The notes under the pieces are model-generated. The model had not been told where the DNA came from and ran no database searches. It saw nothing but the letters and a program-made list of their open reading frames with translations. DNA of 55,144 nt from a virus: positions 1 through 55,144 of IMG/VR virus record IMGVR_UViG_3300046660_000207; one strand, given 5' to 3'. This document shows positions 425 through 55,144 of the stretch, piece by piece. The position numbers and the translations under genes were made by a program. The number at the start of each line of letters is the position of its first letter. Position 1 is the first letter of the stretch.

Positions 425-1654
425 ATGTCCGACGCTCGGCTCAAATCCTTCATCGACCGCGTTCTTCGGCTCAAAACTGAGCAGGATGAACTCGGCAAAG
501 ACATTCGCGATGTGTATGCGGAAGCCAAGGGCGAAGGCTACGACAAGACCGTTATGGGCAAGCTCGTCGCTCATCTCCGCAAGGTTCTCAAGGAAGGCGA
601 TGGCGCTGTCTCCGAACAGGAAAACGTCTTTGACACGTATCTGCTGGCCTATCATCGCGCATCTGGCATGCGCGTTGGCGAGGAAGACGAAATGTCCCCT
701 CGCACGCATGCGCATGCGAGGACGACACAGCCGCCGCGCGCCGCGTCCCTTACCGAAAAGATTGAGGCATACCGGGCTGGTAACCCGATCAGCCAGGATT
801 TCCGCTTTGAGAACGGTTGCGTCTATTTCATCGCTTTCCGCGATGTAGGCCGGGTGAAGATCGGCGTCTCGTCCGATGTCGCCAGTCGCATCGCTGATAT
901 TGAGAAGAACGTCGGCGAGGAGTGCGAGATAATCGCTATCGTACCCGGAAACCGTCAGGCCGAGATGCATGCTCATGACCATCACAAGGCATGGCGCGTT
1001 TCTGGCGAGTGGTATCGCCTTTGCGATGATCTGCTTGCGTCGATCGCAAGCTACACCGCTACGCACACGCATGAAGTCGATTACGACCGATCGACGGGCG
1101 AGATCATCGACCGTGACGCCCGCCGCCGTGCTCGCACGTCTGAAGCTATGGACGACAATATCGCCTTCTCTGCCGATATGGTGGCAGACGGTTTGATTTC
1201 TGAGGAAGCGCACGCTGAGAACGTAGCCCTTTCGAACGCCGTCGCCCGCAAGTACGGCAATGGCCCAATGAACACCCATTCCGGCGCTATCTCCACGCCG
1301 GACGCGCCTGTCACCTCCTCCCGTGACAGCAGCGCAACCGAGGGGGCTGAGGTTGAACCTCGCCCCCTCGCCAATCAGCCGGAAACGGCAATCGAGATGG
1401 ACCGCGCCACAGAAGGCTCTTTCGAGACCGGAAGTGAGGCAGCGGAAAAGGAACGCAAGGCAATCCCGGATCGCCCGGAAGGCGTCACCCTGAACCATGC
1501 CGGAACGGGTGAAAGCCCCGTCGCTATCAACGAGCGCTGCCAAACCCCAACTGGCTGCAAGTTCTCTCATCATCCTTACAAAATCACTTGTTCGGGTTGC
1601 AGTGCCGCATGGTCGGCAAAGGCGAAGGCAAAGCGCGAAAGGGAAAACGCATAA
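425..1654 (+). CDS. GapR-like (DUF2312) domain fused to T5orf172/GIY-YIG-like domain
   Basis: The 409-aa protein has three parts. Residues 5-80 match the GapR/DUF2312 pattern: LKSFIDRVLRLK, then DIRDVYAEAKGEGYD and a helical end. GapR is a known alphaproteobacterial nucleoid protein that binds overtwisted DNA. Residues 128-207 look like a T5orf172/MUG113 domain of the GIY-YIG type: VYFI at 133-136, VKIG at 144-147, a conserved Arg, and the His-rich stretch ending in GEWYRL. The C-terminus (about 372-393) has a CX5C and a CSGC cluster, perhaps a zinc site, followed by a basic tail. The domain assignments rest on motif reading. The nuclease-like part may be structural rather than catalytic. The ATG at 425 follows AGGAG. 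Confidence 0.75.
   Translation: MSDARLKSFIDRVLRLKTEQDELGKDIRDVYAEAKGEGYDKTVMGKLVAHLRKVLKEGDGAVSEQENVFDTYLLAYHRASGMRVGEEDEMSPRTHAHARTTQPPRAASLTEKIEAYRAGNPISQDFRFENGCVYFIAFRDVGRVKIGVSSDVASRIADIEKNVGEECEIIAIVPGNRQAEMHAHDHHKAWRVSGEWYRLCDDLLASIASYTATHTHEVDYDRSTGEIIDRDARRRARTSEAMDDNIAFSADMVADGLISEEAHAENVALSNAVARKYGNGPMNTHSGAISTPDAPVTSSRDSSATEGAEVEPRPLANQPETAIEMDRATEGSFETGSEAAEKERKAIPDRPEGVTLNHAGTGESPVAINERCQTPTGCKFSHHPYKITCSGCSAAWSAKAKAKRERENA
698..721. repeat. 24-bp near-palindrome
   Basis: CCTCGCACGCATG then CGCATGCGAGG forms a near-perfect inverted repeat with one mismatched pair. It falls in the linker-coding part of the GapR-like fusion gene (His/Ala/Arg-rich residues 92-99). It may be a DNA site, or simply a result of codon bias. 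Confidence 0.4.
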
Positions 1655-1968
1655 TGCTTCCATTCAAGTTCACCCCTTCCGATCGTCGGCCCGTCGTCAG
1701 AATTGATACCTTTGGAATGATTGCGGATTTTAAAGCCAAGGGCGGAGCCGTGCGCCAGTTCGAGCCAGGCGCCACCGCCTCCTACGATCATATCAAGCAA
1801 TACCTGTCTGATCATGGCTATCAGCTCTCGATGGTTCGCAACATGAACTGCGTGAAGAAGATCGGCGCCAAGGGCAAAGGCAAAGCCATGCACTGGACGA
1901 AGATCATCGCGCTCGTTGACGAGCTGCGCCTTGCTGACGGAAAGCAACCCTTCCGGAGGGCCGCATAA
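1654..1968 (+). CDS. hypothetical basic protein, 104 aa
   Basis: The ATG at 1654 overlaps the upstream stop as TAATG, which indicates translational coupling to the GapR-like fusion gene. The product is basic, with a GKGKGK run in its second half. It contains no cysteine pairs that would form a zinc site. Because of its charge and the neighbour, a nucleic-acid-binding role is conceivable, but no family is recognised. Confidence 0.65.
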   Translation: MLPFKFTPSDRRPVVRIDTFGMIADFKAKGGAVRQFEPGATASYDHIKQYLSDHGYQLSMVRNMNCVKKIGAKGKGKAMHWTKIIALVDELRLADGKQPFRRAA

Positions 1969-2880: not shown

Positions 2881-2928
2881 CTGCGTACTCCCTGAACAAG
2901 AGTGAAGGTGCCACAGGAGACGAACAAA

Positions 2929-3315
2929 GTGTTGTCCAAGCGTGACAAGGACCAGTCCAACAGGGCCAAGCTAATGAGCGATGTTTTTTATGCCCAAAAC
3001 CTTTTCAGAGAGGCTTTCCCGGAGCGCCGCTACGGAAGCGTAAAGGCTGCGCTGTATGAGGCGCACCGCTTTCTAAGCCGTAAGGTTGCCAAGGAATTCA
3101 CTTATCGCCGTGCACGATCGATCCATGAGGGGACAGCCCGCAGGATCGACGCTGAAGAAATGGAAGCGCTCAAGCTAGCGCTTATCGAGGAGAGCAAACG
3201 TGAACAGCAAAACCTCCGTGCCCGTCTGGCTTCGCTGGATGAAGCGATTGCCGCTTACGAGGCGGCTTCTCATCGCCAAGCGGTGGCGCGACAGAGCGAA
3301 GAAGTGGGCCGATAG
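2929..3315 (+). CDS. hypothetical helical protein, 128 aa
   Basis: I prefer the GTG start at 2929 because AGGAGA ends eight bases upstream; the frame is open from 2902. The N-terminus is basic. The middle is helix-rich (SVKAALYEAHRFLSRKVAKE). The C-terminal half is a long charged helix, probably a coiled coil. A DNA-binding role is possible but not shown. Confidence 0.65.
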   Translation: MLSKRDKDQSNRAKLMSDVFYAQNLFREAFPERRYGSVKAALYEAHRFLSRKVAKEFTYRRARSIHEGTARRIDAEEMEALKLALIEESKREQQNLRARLASLDEAIAAYEAASHRQAVARQSEEVGR

Positions 3316-3354
3316 GGCCGAATGGCTAATCAGCAACGAAAAGGACAAATGACG

Positions 3355-3957
3355 ATGAAAGCCTACATTCTCCTTGACCGCTCCGGTTCAATGTCAACCC
3401 GTTGGGGTGAGACGATCGGCGCTTTGAATGCCTACGTCTCCGGCTTGGCCGCCGCCAAGGCAACGAAGAAGACAGACGTGACGGTCGCCGCGTTTGACAA
3501 TCAGGAGCCATACCTTGTGCTGCGCAACTCGGTGAAGGCCAGCGAGTGGACGCCGATCAGCGAAAGCGAAATCTTGCCACGCGGCATGACGCCGTTGTTC
3601 GACGCCATCAGCAAGCTCGTCGCCGCCGTTCGTCATGATGCTCCGAAGAAGGCGACCATCGTCATCATTACTGACGGCGTAGAAAACGGCAGCATGGAAA
3701 TCAAGAAGGAAGCCGCGAAGGCGCTTCTGGACGAGATGCGCGGCAAGAATTTCGACGTGGTTTTCATCGGCGCCGACTTCGATGCTTTCGCGCAAGGCTC
3801 TGGCCTTGGCAACATGGCCGGCTCAACCCTCAACATGACGGTCGGCAATTACGCATCCGCGATGAAGGGCCTTTCCCTGCGATCCGCTTCCTATGCCTCA
3901 ACCGGAACCATCGGCGCATTCTCCGATGAAGACCGCAAGCGCGCGCAGGGAAAATAA
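3355..3957 (+). CDS. von Willebrand factor A (VWA) domain protein
   Basis: The 200-aa product is essentially one VWA domain. The metal-binding (MIDAS) residues are visible: DRSGSM near residue 8, a Thr in GMTPLFD, and an Asp in ITDGVEN. VWA domains bind a divalent metal and mediate protein-protein contacts. The start at ATG 3355 is chosen over 3349 and 3322 because AAGGA lies at the right distance. In phages and in TerY-type stress systems, similar stand-alone VWA proteins are known, but the partner here is unknown. A radical SAM gene follows after a possible terminator. Confidence 0.85.
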   Translation: MKAYILLDRSGSMSTRWGETIGALNAYVSGLAAAKATKKTDVTVAAFDNQEPYLVLRNSVKASEWTPISESEILPRGMTPLFDAISKLVAAVRHDAPKKATIVIITDGVENGSMEIKKEAAKALLDEMRGKNFDVVFIGADFDAFAQGSGLGNMAGSTLNMTVGNYASAMKGLSLRSASYASTGTIGAFSDEDRKRAQGK

Positions 3958-4048: not shown

Positions 4049-4981
4049 TTGACGACGTGGACCGGCCCCGAAAGCAAATGGTCAGGAGGTCTAGCTCACT
4101 GGACCTTGAACGATCGTGCCTATATCTCTGTAGCCTTTACGTTCAAGCTGCCGGACGCTCGACGGTGGGCGATCTATTATAAGGCTCTTGGCCACAAGGT
4201 CTTTGCCGGTGGGCCAGCGCTCGCTCATGTCAAAACGCAAAAATATATGGAAGACGTGGCATGGGTGCCGCGTGGCAAAGGCAATCCAGGTCGTTACGAC
4301 GGCGCGCTGCATCGCCATAACCCATCCGCGACAATCGCTAGTCGCGGCTGCGATCAAGACTGCTCGTTTTGCATCGTCCCGTTCATGGAAGGCGACTTTA
4401 CTCCGCTGCCTGATTTCCCGGTCCTGCCGGTGCTTTGCGACAACAACCTGTCCGGTTTGCCGGGAGAATACCAGGATCATATCGTTCGCCGCTATCAGGA
4501 CGCTGGTATCCCGTTGCTGGACGCCAACAGCGGATTCGAGCCGCGCACCTTCTCAGCCACGGTATTCGAGCGCTGGCGCGTCATCAATCAAGGTGTCTGG
4601 CGTCTGGCCTATGACGATCTAGTCGAGCGCGATTTCATCAAAGAGGCGATGGCGATCCTGCGCCACGGCGGGGTGTCGTCGCGCAAAATCCAGATTTACA
4701 CGCTGCTCGGCAATGAGCCTTACGAGGCCTGCATGCAGCGCGTCCGCGAGGTAATCGAGTGGGGCGGCGAACCCTATTGCCAACCGCTGATGAAACTCAT
4801 CGCCCTCACGCGAGACCCGCACGTCAAACACGACTGGACGGCCAAGAAGCTTCGCGCCGTTGCCCGCTGGGCCAACAATCACATGTGGCGATCTGCGGCT
4901 CCTCGATTTGAGGATTACAACCCGAAAATCAGACGCGCTCCCCGCGCCCGCTATGATGCCAGCCAAGGCTTGTTCCTATGA
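4049..4981 (+). CDS. radical SAM family protein
   Basis: The 310-aa protein starts at TTG 4049 with AGAAGGA upstream. Residues 98-110 carry the cluster motif SRGCDQDCSFCIVP, where C101, C105 and C108 would bind a 4Fe-4S cluster. The form resembles the core of MiaB-type methylthiotransferases (RGCxxxCxFC), but the MiaB N-terminal and TRAM domains are not evident. Later, DANSGF and LLGNEP resemble other conserved barrel strands. The substrate is unknown; a nucleic-acid or nucleotide modification would fit a phage and the nearby methyltransferase, but that is inference. Confidence 0.85.
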   Translation: MTTWTGPESKWSGGLAHWTLNDRAYISVAFTFKLPDARRWAIYYKALGHKVFAGGPALAHVKTQKYMEDVAWVPRGKGNPGRYDGALHRHNPSATIASRGCDQDCSFCIVPFMEGDFTPLPDFPVLPVLCDNNLSGLPGEYQDHIVRRYQDAGIPLLDANSGFEPRTFSATVFERWRVINQGVWRLAYDDLVERDFIKEAMAILRHGGVSSRKIQIYTLLGNEPYEACMQRVREVIEWGGEPYCQPLMKLIALTRDPHVKHDWTAKKLRAVARWANNHMWRSAAPRFEDYNPKIRRAPRARYDASQGLFL

Positions 4982-5048: not shown

Positions 5049-6446
5049 ATGACGGACGCATACGCTCAATTCCTCGCTCGCAAGCGCATCTTTGATCCTG
5101 AGACAGATATCACAGCAGCGGTGTCTCTGCCATCGGTCATGAAGCCGCACCAGCATGATATCGTCCGTTGGGCTTTGCGCCGCGGCCGCGCCGCCATCTT
5201 CGCTGGTACTGGCCTTGGCAAGACTTTCATGGAGCTTTCATGGGCTGATCAGGTATCGGACTTTACCGGCAAACCAGTGTTGATATTTGCGCCGTTGGCC
5301 GTCGCCGCACAGCATATCCGAGAGGCCAAGAAGTTCGGTATCGAGGCCCGGCACGTCGCCAATCAAAGCCAGATCGTCCCAGGCATCAACGTGACCAACT
5401 ACCAGAAGATGGATCACTTCGATCTATCCTCGTTCGGCGGCATTGTCATGGATGAAAGCAGCATCCTGAAAAGCACTGACGGAAAGTACCGGACGCGCAT
5501 GATCGAGGAATGCAGCCGGGTTCCTTTCCGCCTTGCCGCGACAGCCACACCGGCGCCGAATGATTTTATGGAGCTTGGCAACCACTCTGAGTTTCTCGGG
5601 ATCATGTCCTATACCGACATGCTCGCCACGTTCTTCACACACGATGGCGGCGATACGCAGAAATGGCGGTTGAAGGGCCATGCGGAAAGCGAGTTCTGGA
5701 AGTGGATGGCATCATGGTCGGTGATGCTGCGCAAGCCGTCAGACCTAGGCTATGACAATACCGGCTACGACCTTCCGCCACTGCGCTACCATTCGCACAC
5801 GGTGCAGGTTGAATATGCCCCTTGCATGGATACCGGTCTGCTTTTCCCCATAGAAGCCCGTACGCTGCAAGAACGCATCGCCGCGCGTCGTGATAGCGTC
5901 CAAGAGCGCGTTGCGCTTGCAGCGTCAATCACGCCCAGAGATAGGCCGTTTGTTTGGTGGTGCAATCTCAATGCGGAAGCCGACGCGCTGGCCCGTCAGA
6001 TCCCTGGCGCGGTGAACCTTTCAGGCGCCGATAGCGACGACGCCAAAGAGCGCAAGATGATCGACTTTTCGGAAGGTCGTATCACCACGCTGATTACCAA
6101 GGCATCAATCGCCGGCTTTGGCATGAACTGGCAGCACTGTGCGGATACCGGCTTCGTCGGTCTCAATGACAGCTTCGAACAGGTCTATCAGGCAATTCGG
6201 CGTTTTTGGCGGTTCGGCCAGACGGAAGCCGTCAACGCCCATTTTATCGCATCGGAGATGGAGGGCGCCACGGTCGCCAACCAGCGCCGCAAGGAAGCCG
6301 ATGCAGACCGCATGGCGGCGGCGATGGTTATGCACATGGCCGATCTATCCAGCGCCGTTGTGCGTGGTTCTGTCCGCGACCGGCCCGACTACAATCCGAC
6401 AATTCCAATGACAATTCCTGCATGGGTAGGGGAGTGCGCTGCATGA
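5049..6446 (+). CDS. SNF2/DEAD-like superfamily 2 helicase
   Basis: The 465-aa protein has clear SF2 motifs. The Walker A is GTGLGKT at 53-59. Motif Ia is IFAPLAVAAQ. The DExx box is MDES at 134-137. Motif III is ATATPAPN at about 164-171, and motif VI is QAIRRFWRFGQ near 380-390. This set is typical of compact phage SNF2-type translocases. It would use ATP to move on duplex DNA. Its stop overlaps the start of a DNA methyltransferase, a pairing seen in other phages and suggestive of joint work on DNA. The Shine-Dalgarno is strong but lies in a hairpin. Confidence 0.9.
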   Translation: MTDAYAQFLARKRIFDPETDITAAVSLPSVMKPHQHDIVRWALRRGRAAIFAGTGLGKTFMELSWADQVSDFTGKPVLIFAPLAVAAQHIREAKKFGIEARHVANQSQIVPGINVTNYQKMDHFDLSSFGGIVMDESSILKSTDGKYRTRMIEECSRVPFRLAATATPAPNDFMELGNHSEFLGIMSYTDMLATFFTHDGGDTQKWRLKGHAESEFWKWMASWSVMLRKPSDLGYDNTGYDLPPLRYHSHTVQVEYAPCMDTGLLFPIEARTLQERIAARRDSVQERVALAASITPRDRPFVWWCNLNAEADALARQIPGAVNLSGADSDDAKERKMIDFSEGRITTLITKASIAGFGMNWQHCADTGFVGLNDSFEQVYQAIRRFWRFGQTEAVNAHFIASEMEGATVANQRRKEADADRMAAAMVMHMADLSSAVVRGSVRDRPDYNPTIPMTIPAWVGECAA

Positions 6447-52002: not shown

Positions 52003-52713
52003 TTAGGCTGCTTCGACCGGCGCGGCCGTATCGAGTTTGATGCCGTTCAGGACGCAGAACTCTTCGGCCCATTCGAGCGCCATCTTCGATGCAAAGCCGC
52101 CGCCGCTGTCGTCACCCGGCTTGTCGCCGGTCTTGATCATGGCAAACCATTTTTCGGCAGGGTTCGAGGCGTTGTGATCCAACGTGGCATATGGGACAGA
52201 CTTCGCGTTTGCGATCGTGCCGACGAGGCACGCGCATTCGCCCTCGTAAGTCGATCCGTTCACCTTGCCGTCACGCAAGGCTGTGACGAGCGCCGGTACT
52301 TCGTGGCGGTTCTGCGTAAGGGTCATCCAAAGATCGGCCTTAAACGTCCGCAGGTCGGCGGAGCTCAGGTCGGCGGAGCTCAGGTCGGCGTAGCTCAGGT
52401 TGGCGGAGCTCAGGTCGGCGTAGCTCAGGTTGGCGGAGCGCAGGTCGGCGTAGCTCAGGTTGGCGGAGCGCAGGTCGGCGGAGCTCAGGTTGGCGGAGCT
52501 CAGGTCGGCGTAGCTCAGGTCGGCGTAGCTCAGGTTGGCGGAGCTCAGGTCGGCGTAGCGCAGGTCGGCGGAGCTCAGGTTGGCTTTCGCCTTAATCGCC
52601 CACTTCACGGCCAATCCGAGCTTGTAGGAACGCGCGGCATTTTCGTCGCATTCGATCTCGGCAGTGATTTGCACTTCGCCGGAAAATCTATTGAGGATGT
52701 CAAACTTAATCAC
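52003..52713 (-). CDS. pentapeptide-repeat protein
   Basis: GTG 52713 has GGAG nine bases upstream. In the 236-aa product, residues 45-125 hold 16 uninterrupted pentapeptides of the form A-(N/D)-L-(S/R)-(S/Y), which would fold as a short right-handed quadrilateral beta-helix. A globular C-terminal part (about 130-236) follows. Some pentapeptide proteins mimic DNA and bind gyrase; whether this one does is unknown. The DNA repeats every 15 bases. Confidence 0.85.
52345..52585. repeat. 15-bp tandem repeats coding for pentapeptides
   Basis: About 16 nearly identical 15-base units (on the plus strand CAGGTCGGCGGAGCT or CAGGTTGGCGTAGCT variants) lie head to tail in the pentapeptide gene. Such DNA is prone to slipped-strand gain or loss of units without frame change. 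Confidence 0.85.
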
Positions 52714-53678: not shown

Positions 53679-53906
53679 ATGCGAAGTAGACGGGAAGTTT
53701 TAGGATGGATGTCTGCGGGGGTGGCCACGGCGGTTTTGCCCGTCGCCGCAGACGCAGAGACGGAAGGCATAAGCTGTCATCAGTATGCGGGTAAAATAGC
53801 CGACGCCATGACGGCGGAACATGGTGGCATCTGGCGGGTAAGCATCGGCAATGATTTCGTGCTTATCTCAAAGCAGCTGGTCAGCCCGTCCTCAACAAGG
53901 CTGTGA
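53679..53906 (+). CDS. small exported protein with Tat-like signal, 75 aa
   Basis: ATG 53679 has GAGG upstream. The N-terminus is SRREVLGWMSAGVATAV and then AADA, a twin-arginine-like signal with likely cleavage after residue 26. The mature part is about 49 residues with one Cys. It lies in the immunity region and overlaps the 3' end of the repressor gene by 26 bases, convergent to it. It is a plausible lysogen-expressed envelope protein. Function is unknown. Confidence 0.6.
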   Translation: MRSRREVLGWMSAGVATAVLPVAADAETEGISCHQYAGKIADAMTAEHGGIWRVSIGNDFVLISKQLVSPSSTRL

Positions 53907-54219
53907 CGACAGAAATAACCTGAGTGCGCTGTTCCGGCGTTGCGCCCCTCAACAGCTCATCCAGGGTTGGCCGTTCTGGATCTCGGAAGAGATCGCCCGG
54001 GTTATCTAGGCCAAGCGCATCTGCCAGCGCGGCTTGAACATCCATTGTCATGCCGCGTTGGTTTCTTTCCCACCGACTGATTTGGTCCTTGCCAGTCGGC
54101 TTTCCGTCCTCGCCATTGGGCAAGCGATCGGCAAGCTGCTGTTGCGTCAGGTCGCGTTTCAACCGCCATTCCTTGAGGAAATGTTTGATTGGGTCGCGTG
54201 GTCCGATTCTTGTCACCAT
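53881..54219 (-). CDS. HTH (XRE-type) phage repressor candidate
   Basis: The 112-aa protein has one helix-turn-helix domain (about 10-70): FLKEWRLKRDLTQQQLADRL, then KDQISRWERNQRGMT and AALADALGL. The rest is a short helical tail. It faces the Cro-like gene across an operator cluster, the usual place of the main lysogenic repressor. No S24 peptidase part is present, so it cannot be cut in the LexA manner; induction must use another route. Confidence 0.8.
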   Translation of the reverse strand: MVTRIGPRDPIKHFLKEWRLKRDLTQQQLADRLPNGEDGKPTGKDQISRWERNQRGMTMDVQAALADALGLDNPGDLFRDPERPTLDELLRGATPEQRTQVISVVTALLRTG

Positions 54220-54323: not shown

Positions 54324-54539
54324 ATGGATCAGAAGCACCCACTCACCAAATGGCGCGCCGAGAACAACCTTACGCAGGGCGAACTTGCGACTGAGGTGAA
54401 GGTCACGCGCTGGATGATCAACCGGATTGAACTCAGAGAGCGCAGCCCGTCGCTTACGCTCGCAACGAGGATCCGCAACTTCACCAAAGGTGAAGTGTCC
54501 TTGGATGATCTGGCTACCTCGAAGGCGGCGGCAGAATGA
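54324..54539 (+). CDS. Cro-like HTH protein
   Basis: The 71-aa protein is one helix-turn-helix: LTKWRAENNLTQGELATEVK, then TRWMINRIELRERSPSLTLA. It is divergent from the repressor gene, directly behind an operator, the position of Cro. It probably turns down repressor synthesis and favours lysis. Its stop is followed by a minus-strand gene. Confidence 0.82.
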   Translation: MDQKHPLTKWRAENNLTQGELATEVKVTRWMINRIELRERSPSLTLATRIRNFTKGEVSLDDLATSKAAAE

Positions 54540-54544
54540 CATCC

Positions 54545-54793
54545 TCACCCCTCCAGAGCGCGAAGCGACCTGCAGAGCGACCACGCTGTTTCGGTCTTCA
54601 TCCTCAGCCTGACGGAAACGTCGGCTTTAGGGATACCGTCGCCGTCTTGGCTGATTGCAGCGAAGCTCATTCGGATGATGCCTTCATGTTCGGAAATCTC
54701 GGTGACGATATCGGCCCACACCGGATCGGTTCCGTCGTCAAAGACGATCAGGATTTCATCGCCGTCCCTAACCTTGCCGACTGTACGTATCAC
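54545..54793 (-). CDS. reversed hypothetical protein, 82 aa
   Basis: GTG 54793 has AAGGAG five bases upstream. The product is protein-like, with strands (DEILIVFDDGTDPVWADIVT) and an acidic middle, ending in a basic helix. It is convergent with the Cro-like gene. A plus-strand frame (54536-54823) covers the same bases but looks like its shadow. Function is unknown. Confidence 0.6.
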   Translation of the reverse strand: MIRTVGKVRDGDEILIVFDDGTDPVWADIVTEISEHEGIIRMSFAAISQDGDGIPKADVSVRLRMKTETAWSLCRSLRALEG

Positions 54794-55023: not shown

Positions 55024-55097
55024 CCCCGTACCTCACCCTCATCCTTGCCTACGCAATCTCCTATGGATCTGTCGTTCTCTTTTTGCGGAGGCTTTGA
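55020..55097 (+). CDS. tiny membrane peptide, 25 aa
   Basis: ATG 55020 overlaps the upstream TGA. The peptide is almost all membrane segment (TPYLTLILAYAISYGSVVLF) with a basic end (RRL). Its 3' part recurs at 2-58. Confidence 0.5.
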   Translation: MTPYLTLILAYAISYGSVVLFLRRL

Positions 55098-55144
55098 CAT
55101 GCCTATTTTCCTCTTATCCATCCTCTGGCTTGCTCCGTTCATCA
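55040..55144. repeat. terminal direct repeat (right copy)
   Basis: Right-hand copy of bases 1-105 with two synonymous differences near the very end of the window. Bases 55099-55144 start the 31-aa membrane protein that is whole at 60-155. Confidence 0.9.
55099..55144 (+). CDS. 5' end of 31-aa membrane protein (partial at window edge)
   Basis: This is the same gene as 60-155, cut by the end of the window. Codons for Ala12 and Pro13 are GCT and CCG here but GCG and CCT in the left copy. Confidence 0.5.
   Translation, partial: MPIFLLSILWLAPFI

Follow-up and report, generated by a model that had tools for sequence, protein, structure and literature searches.

Among sensors of overtwisted DNA, GapR is the best known, and it serves as a mapping tool. 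In Caulobacter and other alphaproteobacteria the host protein (UPF0335/DUF2312) stands alone and is about 80-90 amino acids long (PMC7373187, PMC8360656). One report describes GapR in a phage genome as a first (PMC12185513), but GapR/DUF2312-like genes were already present in phages Cd and PBC5 (L182, L183; CU468217, AF448724). Domains of the T5orf172 type are known to exchange DNA-binding partners (PMC10448857), and in Odn (ICP1 Gp88) such a domain is joined to RepA_N: the purified protein cuts its target, the origin bound by its RepA-like domain, and the E180A exchange abolishes cutting (PMC8263062). The main text of the study that describes partner exchange contains neither 'GapR' nor 'DUF2312' (PMC10448857).

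The window analysed here is a whole virus record of 55,144 nucleotides. Its first and last 105 bases (1-105 and 55040-55144) overlap with two mismatches, and the record is therefore a circular genome; it has been cut inside the early operon, and the two end copies differ slightly. Close to this cut lies an ATG-started open reading frame of 409 amino acids (425..1654, plus strand), the same span as in the original prediction, which had read it as a GapR-like domain fused to a GIY-YIG-like one. A Cro/HTH-type regulator (54324..54539, plus strand) is situated about 1.2 kb upstream across the circular join, and an HTH repressor-like frame, recognised by sequence inspection only, diverges from it (53881..54219, minus strand). 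As this pair leads into the plus-strand operon of which the chimera gene is part, the latter is an early gene. Also early and near the chimera are genes for a VWA protein (3322-3957), a radical-SAM-like protein (4049-4981; PHROG_9298, 1.6e-11) and a helicase (5049-6446; PHROG_62, 2e-55). Elsewhere the genome carries TerS/TerL, integrase, RecE-like exonuclease and Erf genes, and the host is very probably a root-nodule-type bacterium. A pentapeptide-repeat-like protein, judged by eye only, is encoded at 52003-52713 (minus strand); proteins of this kind can act as DNA mimics or influence gyrase.

GapR-family proteins of a common layout are carried by some 30 related virus records and prophage loci, whose hosts, where named, are Rhizobium, Sinorhizobium, Ensifer and Shinella. 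They start with the same type of GapR, followed by a middle that is helical or of another kind, a long disordered stretch and a variable end. Early proteins of this family (for example Rhizobium phage RHph_TM3_3_3 EVB37_071 and IMG/VR records L059-L086) are encoded at the same position behind the repressor/Cro region and share with the chimera a close GapR domain (best 73-83% identity), the disordered stretch and Cys-cluster or ParB-like ends, but, unlike the chimera, they have no T5orf172 insert. The surroundings are shared as well. Homologues of the upstream neighbour (54545..54793, minus strand) immediately precede the GapR-family gene in L080 (50%) and L005 (43%), those of the downstream gene (1654..1968, plus strand; 39% identity to L080:4796-5161) follow it, and with 2902-3315 included the best matches of these neighbours, all in the same place around the relatives' genes, range from 39 to 67% identity. 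Since the neighbours on both sides are syntenic, the chimera is the positional counterpart of the relatives' GapR-family genes.

The ends of the relatives are of two kinds, a Cys cluster (26 of 34) and a ParB-like domain (8 of 34: L061, L063, L065, L072, L077, L006, L007 and L011). Those ParB-like ends that were tested gave no Pfam match under E 1, and their PHROG ParB matches are weak (0.002 in one); a GapR-ParB-like fusion is unusual. Other GapR fusions do exist, as a protein of Ruegeria phage 45A6 annotated as FtsK (L181:1655-2710) has a C-terminal part that resembles GapR, in agreement with phrog_4212. An alignment of the full family is left out of our results, its T5orf172 rows being misplaced.

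Both domains named in the original prediction are recognised by curated profiles above their cut-offs. Residues 4-75 (434..649, plus strand) match Pfam GapR_DNA-bd (PF10073) at E=2.3e-16, with 59.6 bits against a cut-off of 22.6, which places them in the family; the model predicts helices at 3-36, 41-57 and 64-79, and solved GapR-type chains match at 5e-10 to 1e-8. The phage domain thus resembles host GapR as a helical domain of about 72 residues recognised by Pfam and by the sequences of solved structures, but it differs in carrying long extra domains, in an insertion of about four residues in helix 2 and in the loss of several DNA contacts. In alignment to the solved chains (residues in CcGapR numbering, PMC7373187, mapped by hand, with ambiguous placement around the helix-2 insertion), K34, K56 and K59 are not kept and E28, the structural partner of R65, is lost; K49, R65 and K66 are kept, and K42 is replaced by arginine. 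The score against the NCBIfam GapR equivalog NF052541 is 46.9 bits, far below its cut-off of 140.

The second domain (residues ~128-214; 806..1066, plus strand) belongs to T5orf172/MUG113, within the GIY-YIG superfamily. Pfam MUG113 matches residues 144-207 (E=6.4e-5; 23.9 bits, cut-off 22.3) and Pfam T5orf172 residues 131-200 (E=9e-4); with 20.1 bits, where the cut-off is 20, the latter is borderline by itself. T5orf172-type families in PHROG give E-values of 1e-14 to 1e-11, PHROG_4284 being at 1e-14. Predicted alone by AlphaFold, the domain has a mean pLDDT of 85 with a core above 90, and after VIA realignment its top seven PDB neighbours are all GIY-YIG proteins, with modest Z-scores, below 6, that run from 5.8 to 3.8 (HIGLE 5.8, Slx1 5.0, AtGRXS16 4.9, I-TevI 4.6; also EF2693 and BH0048). 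The model thus has the predicted fold of a GIY-YIG domain. Foldseek alone returned zero PDB matches under E 1 for the same model, and no GIY-YIG chain came up when PDB sequences were searched with the region by hmmsearch. Viral structures are closer: T5orf172 domains in BFVD match at about 1e-6, and 99 viral structures match at E<=0.001, the named ones among the matches listed being mostly T5orf172, MUG113, Bro or GIY-YIG.

The conserved Tyr, [K/Y]IG, Arg and Glu are all present (Y134, K145-I146-G147, R155 and E180), and with H184 the active-site set is complete; E195-W196 follows within the domain. Among 59 T5orf172 sequences Y134, G147 and E180 are invariant and R155 is found in 57, and the chimera keeps them all. 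T5orf172 domains have a lysine in place of the YIG tyrosine (KIG). This departure from the classical motif counts against cutting, yet activity is possible in T5orf172 domains, as Odn demonstrates.

Beyond this domain the full-length model is confident only for a conserved helical segment (residues 230-277, DARRRARTSEAMDDN...DGLISEEAHAEN...; 1112..1255, plus strand), the GapR helices and the T5orf172 domain being its other confident parts. Residues 285-377 (1277..1555, plus strand) are of low confidence (pLDDT <50) and probably disordered. The possible zinc site foreseen at the end comprises four cysteines, C372-x5-C378-x10-C389-x2-C392 (1538..1600, plus strand). The protein is a mosaic: its GapR part is nearest to L002 (83%), its middle to L006 and L005 (77-78%), and its tail to L065 (73% over 49 residues), while the helical segment is shared in mosaic fashion with L006, L005, L009 and L002. 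A VIA search with the whole protein returned mostly matches to the helical segment (218-286) at Z <6.5, which we read as non-specific.

How did the T5orf172 domain enter this gene? Codons 85-212 (677..1060, plus strand) form an in-frame insert that is missing from the syntenic relatives. There the hinge after the GapR domain reads without interruption GTT-GCT-ACG-CAC-(A/G)CG-CAT; in the window it reads GTT-[codons 85-212]-GCT-ACG-CAC-ACG-CAT, a clean, in-frame joint at a point where the relatives are contiguous. The insert opens with a Shine-Dalgarno-like GAGGA followed by an in-frame ATG at codon 90 (680..694, plus strand), possibly a remnant start or an internal one. In the window genome such a motif precedes 13 of 331 internal in-frame ATGs and 31 of 63 called starts. 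Since GAGGA and ATG open the insert, they suggest that a stand-alone T5orf172 gene was captured in frame together with its own start, and a short form from this ATG, a T5orf172-tail protein without GapR, may still be made. Also inside the insert is a near-palindromic stretch (688-725; CCTCGCACGCATGCGCATGCGAGG), which encodes THAHA, a peptide similar to the THTHE hinge at the other insert end. An intein is unsupported, no splicing block having been seen on inspection.

An insert of this kind raises the possibility that the T5orf172 module acts, or until recently acted, as a homing endonuclease whose target would be the uninterrupted hinge of related phages, a free-standing gene beside a GapR gene (as in L002) having been inserted in frame at GTT|GCT-ACG-CAC and tolerated. 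In other phages, T5orf172 genes that lie near essential genes are taken for homing endonuclease genes (PMC10448857), and those of ICP1 and T5-like phages resemble the chimera in modular partner exchange, sporadic occurrence and a zinc-finger-like element in the same protein, but their partners are CapR, DUF723 and DUF4397 zinc fingers, whereas the T5orf172 of the chimera is fused inside another gene (PMC10448857). The start-like motif fits such an origin, as do the strong conservation of the hinge among uninterrupted relatives and the sporadic presence of T5orf172 in the window and 4 of 30 related virus records, where it is always close to the GapR gene. Against it, the insert is in frame on both sides, with no stop and no intron or intein signal seen, and the recipient gene is not known as essential. 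The uninterrupted relatives that share the hinge reach at best 83% identity in the GapR domain, and the relatives yielded no pair of near-identical alleles with and without the insert. The second fusion described below, moreover, joins at a different point. We regard a homing origin as a serious rival, though less probable than the reading that we prefer.

This second fusion is found in the related record L087 (L087:3995-4429), where GapR residues 1-43 continue in frame into a T5orf172 domain in a protein of 144 amino acids; in the next gene (L087:4430-5326) the usual body of the family is preceded by a different N-terminal domain, as yet unclassified. Within the family set the L087 T5orf172 domain is the closest to that of the window (42% over 73 residues), and the fusion evidently arose independently in the two viruses. 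T5orf172 also occurs unfused nearby: in L002 a free gene overlaps the start of the GapR gene, and in L080 and L083 the genes lie at most 1.5 kb downstream of the GapR-family gene. With two independent fusions and one stand-alone gene next to a GapR gene, it seems that one phage group has tried this pairing repeatedly.

The original prediction had allowed that the fusion might be an assembly join, and the gene does lie less than 0.5 kb from a contig end. The ends overlap in a circular record, however, the frame is open throughout, and the GC content of the insert by codon position is coding-like. Given also that the flanking genes have same-place homologues in relatives on both sides and that L087 holds an in-frame fusion of its own, an error of assembly or annotation is excluded as far as sequence can do so, and we hold it to be extremely improbable.

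The joining of GapR to T5orf172 is real and apparently rare. Searching annotated phages by tblastn gave 58 records with one matching place each, and among the matches listed none covers more than 24% of the query, so that none of these phages matched both domains. No GapR-T5orf172 fusion was found in the plasmids searched. T5orf172 searches, with up to 30 loci inspected in each, found no frame with both domains in 395 genomes of Rhizobiaceae, 397 at order level and 385 at class level, nor did a PF10544 search of 298 Rhizobiaceae genomes (up to 30 loci); over 1,000 alphaproteobacterial genomes were sampled in all, the Rhizobiaceae, order- and class-level samples overlapping. Viral contigs scanned with the T5orf172 region as a single protein gave no match, and with a two-row alignment they gave L087 again and two phages with other T5orf172 proteins. 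As no paper joining GapR, phage and GIY-YIG was found, within an incomplete coverage of the literature, the fusion appears to be undescribed.

What might such a protein do? We favour, tentatively, an early-operon DNA-transaction protein of the modular GapR family that acts as a chimeric nuclease; homing from a tolerant hinge ranks second and a non-cutting regulator third. The regulator would use T5orf172 merely to bind DNA or a partner and would act on early transcription or on the nucleoid. Its attractions are the KIG motif, the place of the gene in an early operon after a Cro-like gene, the regulatory look of the family's interchangeable Cys-cluster or ParB-like ends and the similar role suggested for Bro-N/KilA-N-T5orf172 proteins. 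Yet the chimera keeps those residues for which a catalytic role in T5orf172 is known or inferred, and the T5orf172 protein of another phage is an active nuclease (PMC8263062), and we think this reading rather unlikely.

The chimeric nuclease that we favour has its basis in the architecture, the predicted fold, the intact active-site residues, the family-wide synteny, the early-operon position and the two fusions; from these we infer that the protein would bind and cut DNA, and what its target and its benefit to the phage might be. An ancestor with a GapR domain, helical middle, disordered tail and Cys cluster would have gained the GIY-YIG-type module at the post-GapR hinge, perhaps with the module's own start region. 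The GapR coiled coil would oligomerise and, together with the C-terminal Cys cluster, hold DNA, and the T5orf172 domain would nick or cut near the held site. The most plausible targets would be competitor, host or cognate phage DNA, as for Odn with its RepA_N domain. Odn is likewise a phage protein in which a borrowed DNA-binding domain accompanies a T5orf172 nuclease domain that retains the catalytic Arg and Glu (PMC8263062). The chimera has GapR instead of RepA_N, which sets it outside the Odn type (RepA_N plus T5orf172) and makes the comparison one of likely working only; its T5orf172 domain also sits mid-protein, before the helical segment and the Cys cluster.

That a GapR module should hold a nuclease or DNA-binding activity on DNA, as originally proposed, is plausible, given that the T5orf172 domain has retained its active-site residues. 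The further proposal of targeting to overtwisted DNA finds no support from sequence alone: the equivalog score falls short, K34, K56, K59 and E28 are not conserved, and the GapR part of L087, which ends near residue 43, does not reach the DNA-binding helix H2. Cut off there, that part can at most oligomerise. Helix 1 of Caulobacter GapR binds no DNA on its own (PMC7373187), and the L087 fusion has little beyond helix 1. The safest role to assign to the GapR part is therefore oligomerisation, and supercoil sensing by the chimera is unproven. More doubtful than the regulator is a nuclease guided by topology, whose GapR clamp would settle on positively supercoiled DNA in front of the replication or transcription machinery and whose T5orf172 domain would nick or cut there. 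Such a protein would relax phage DNA without gyrase, or break host or rival chromosomes at active forks, and a natural GapR-nuclease fusion would be a testable candidate for a supercoil-directed nuclease. Such a fusion would extend the rule that phages build DNA weapons from T5orf172 cutters and borrowed DNA-binding domains.
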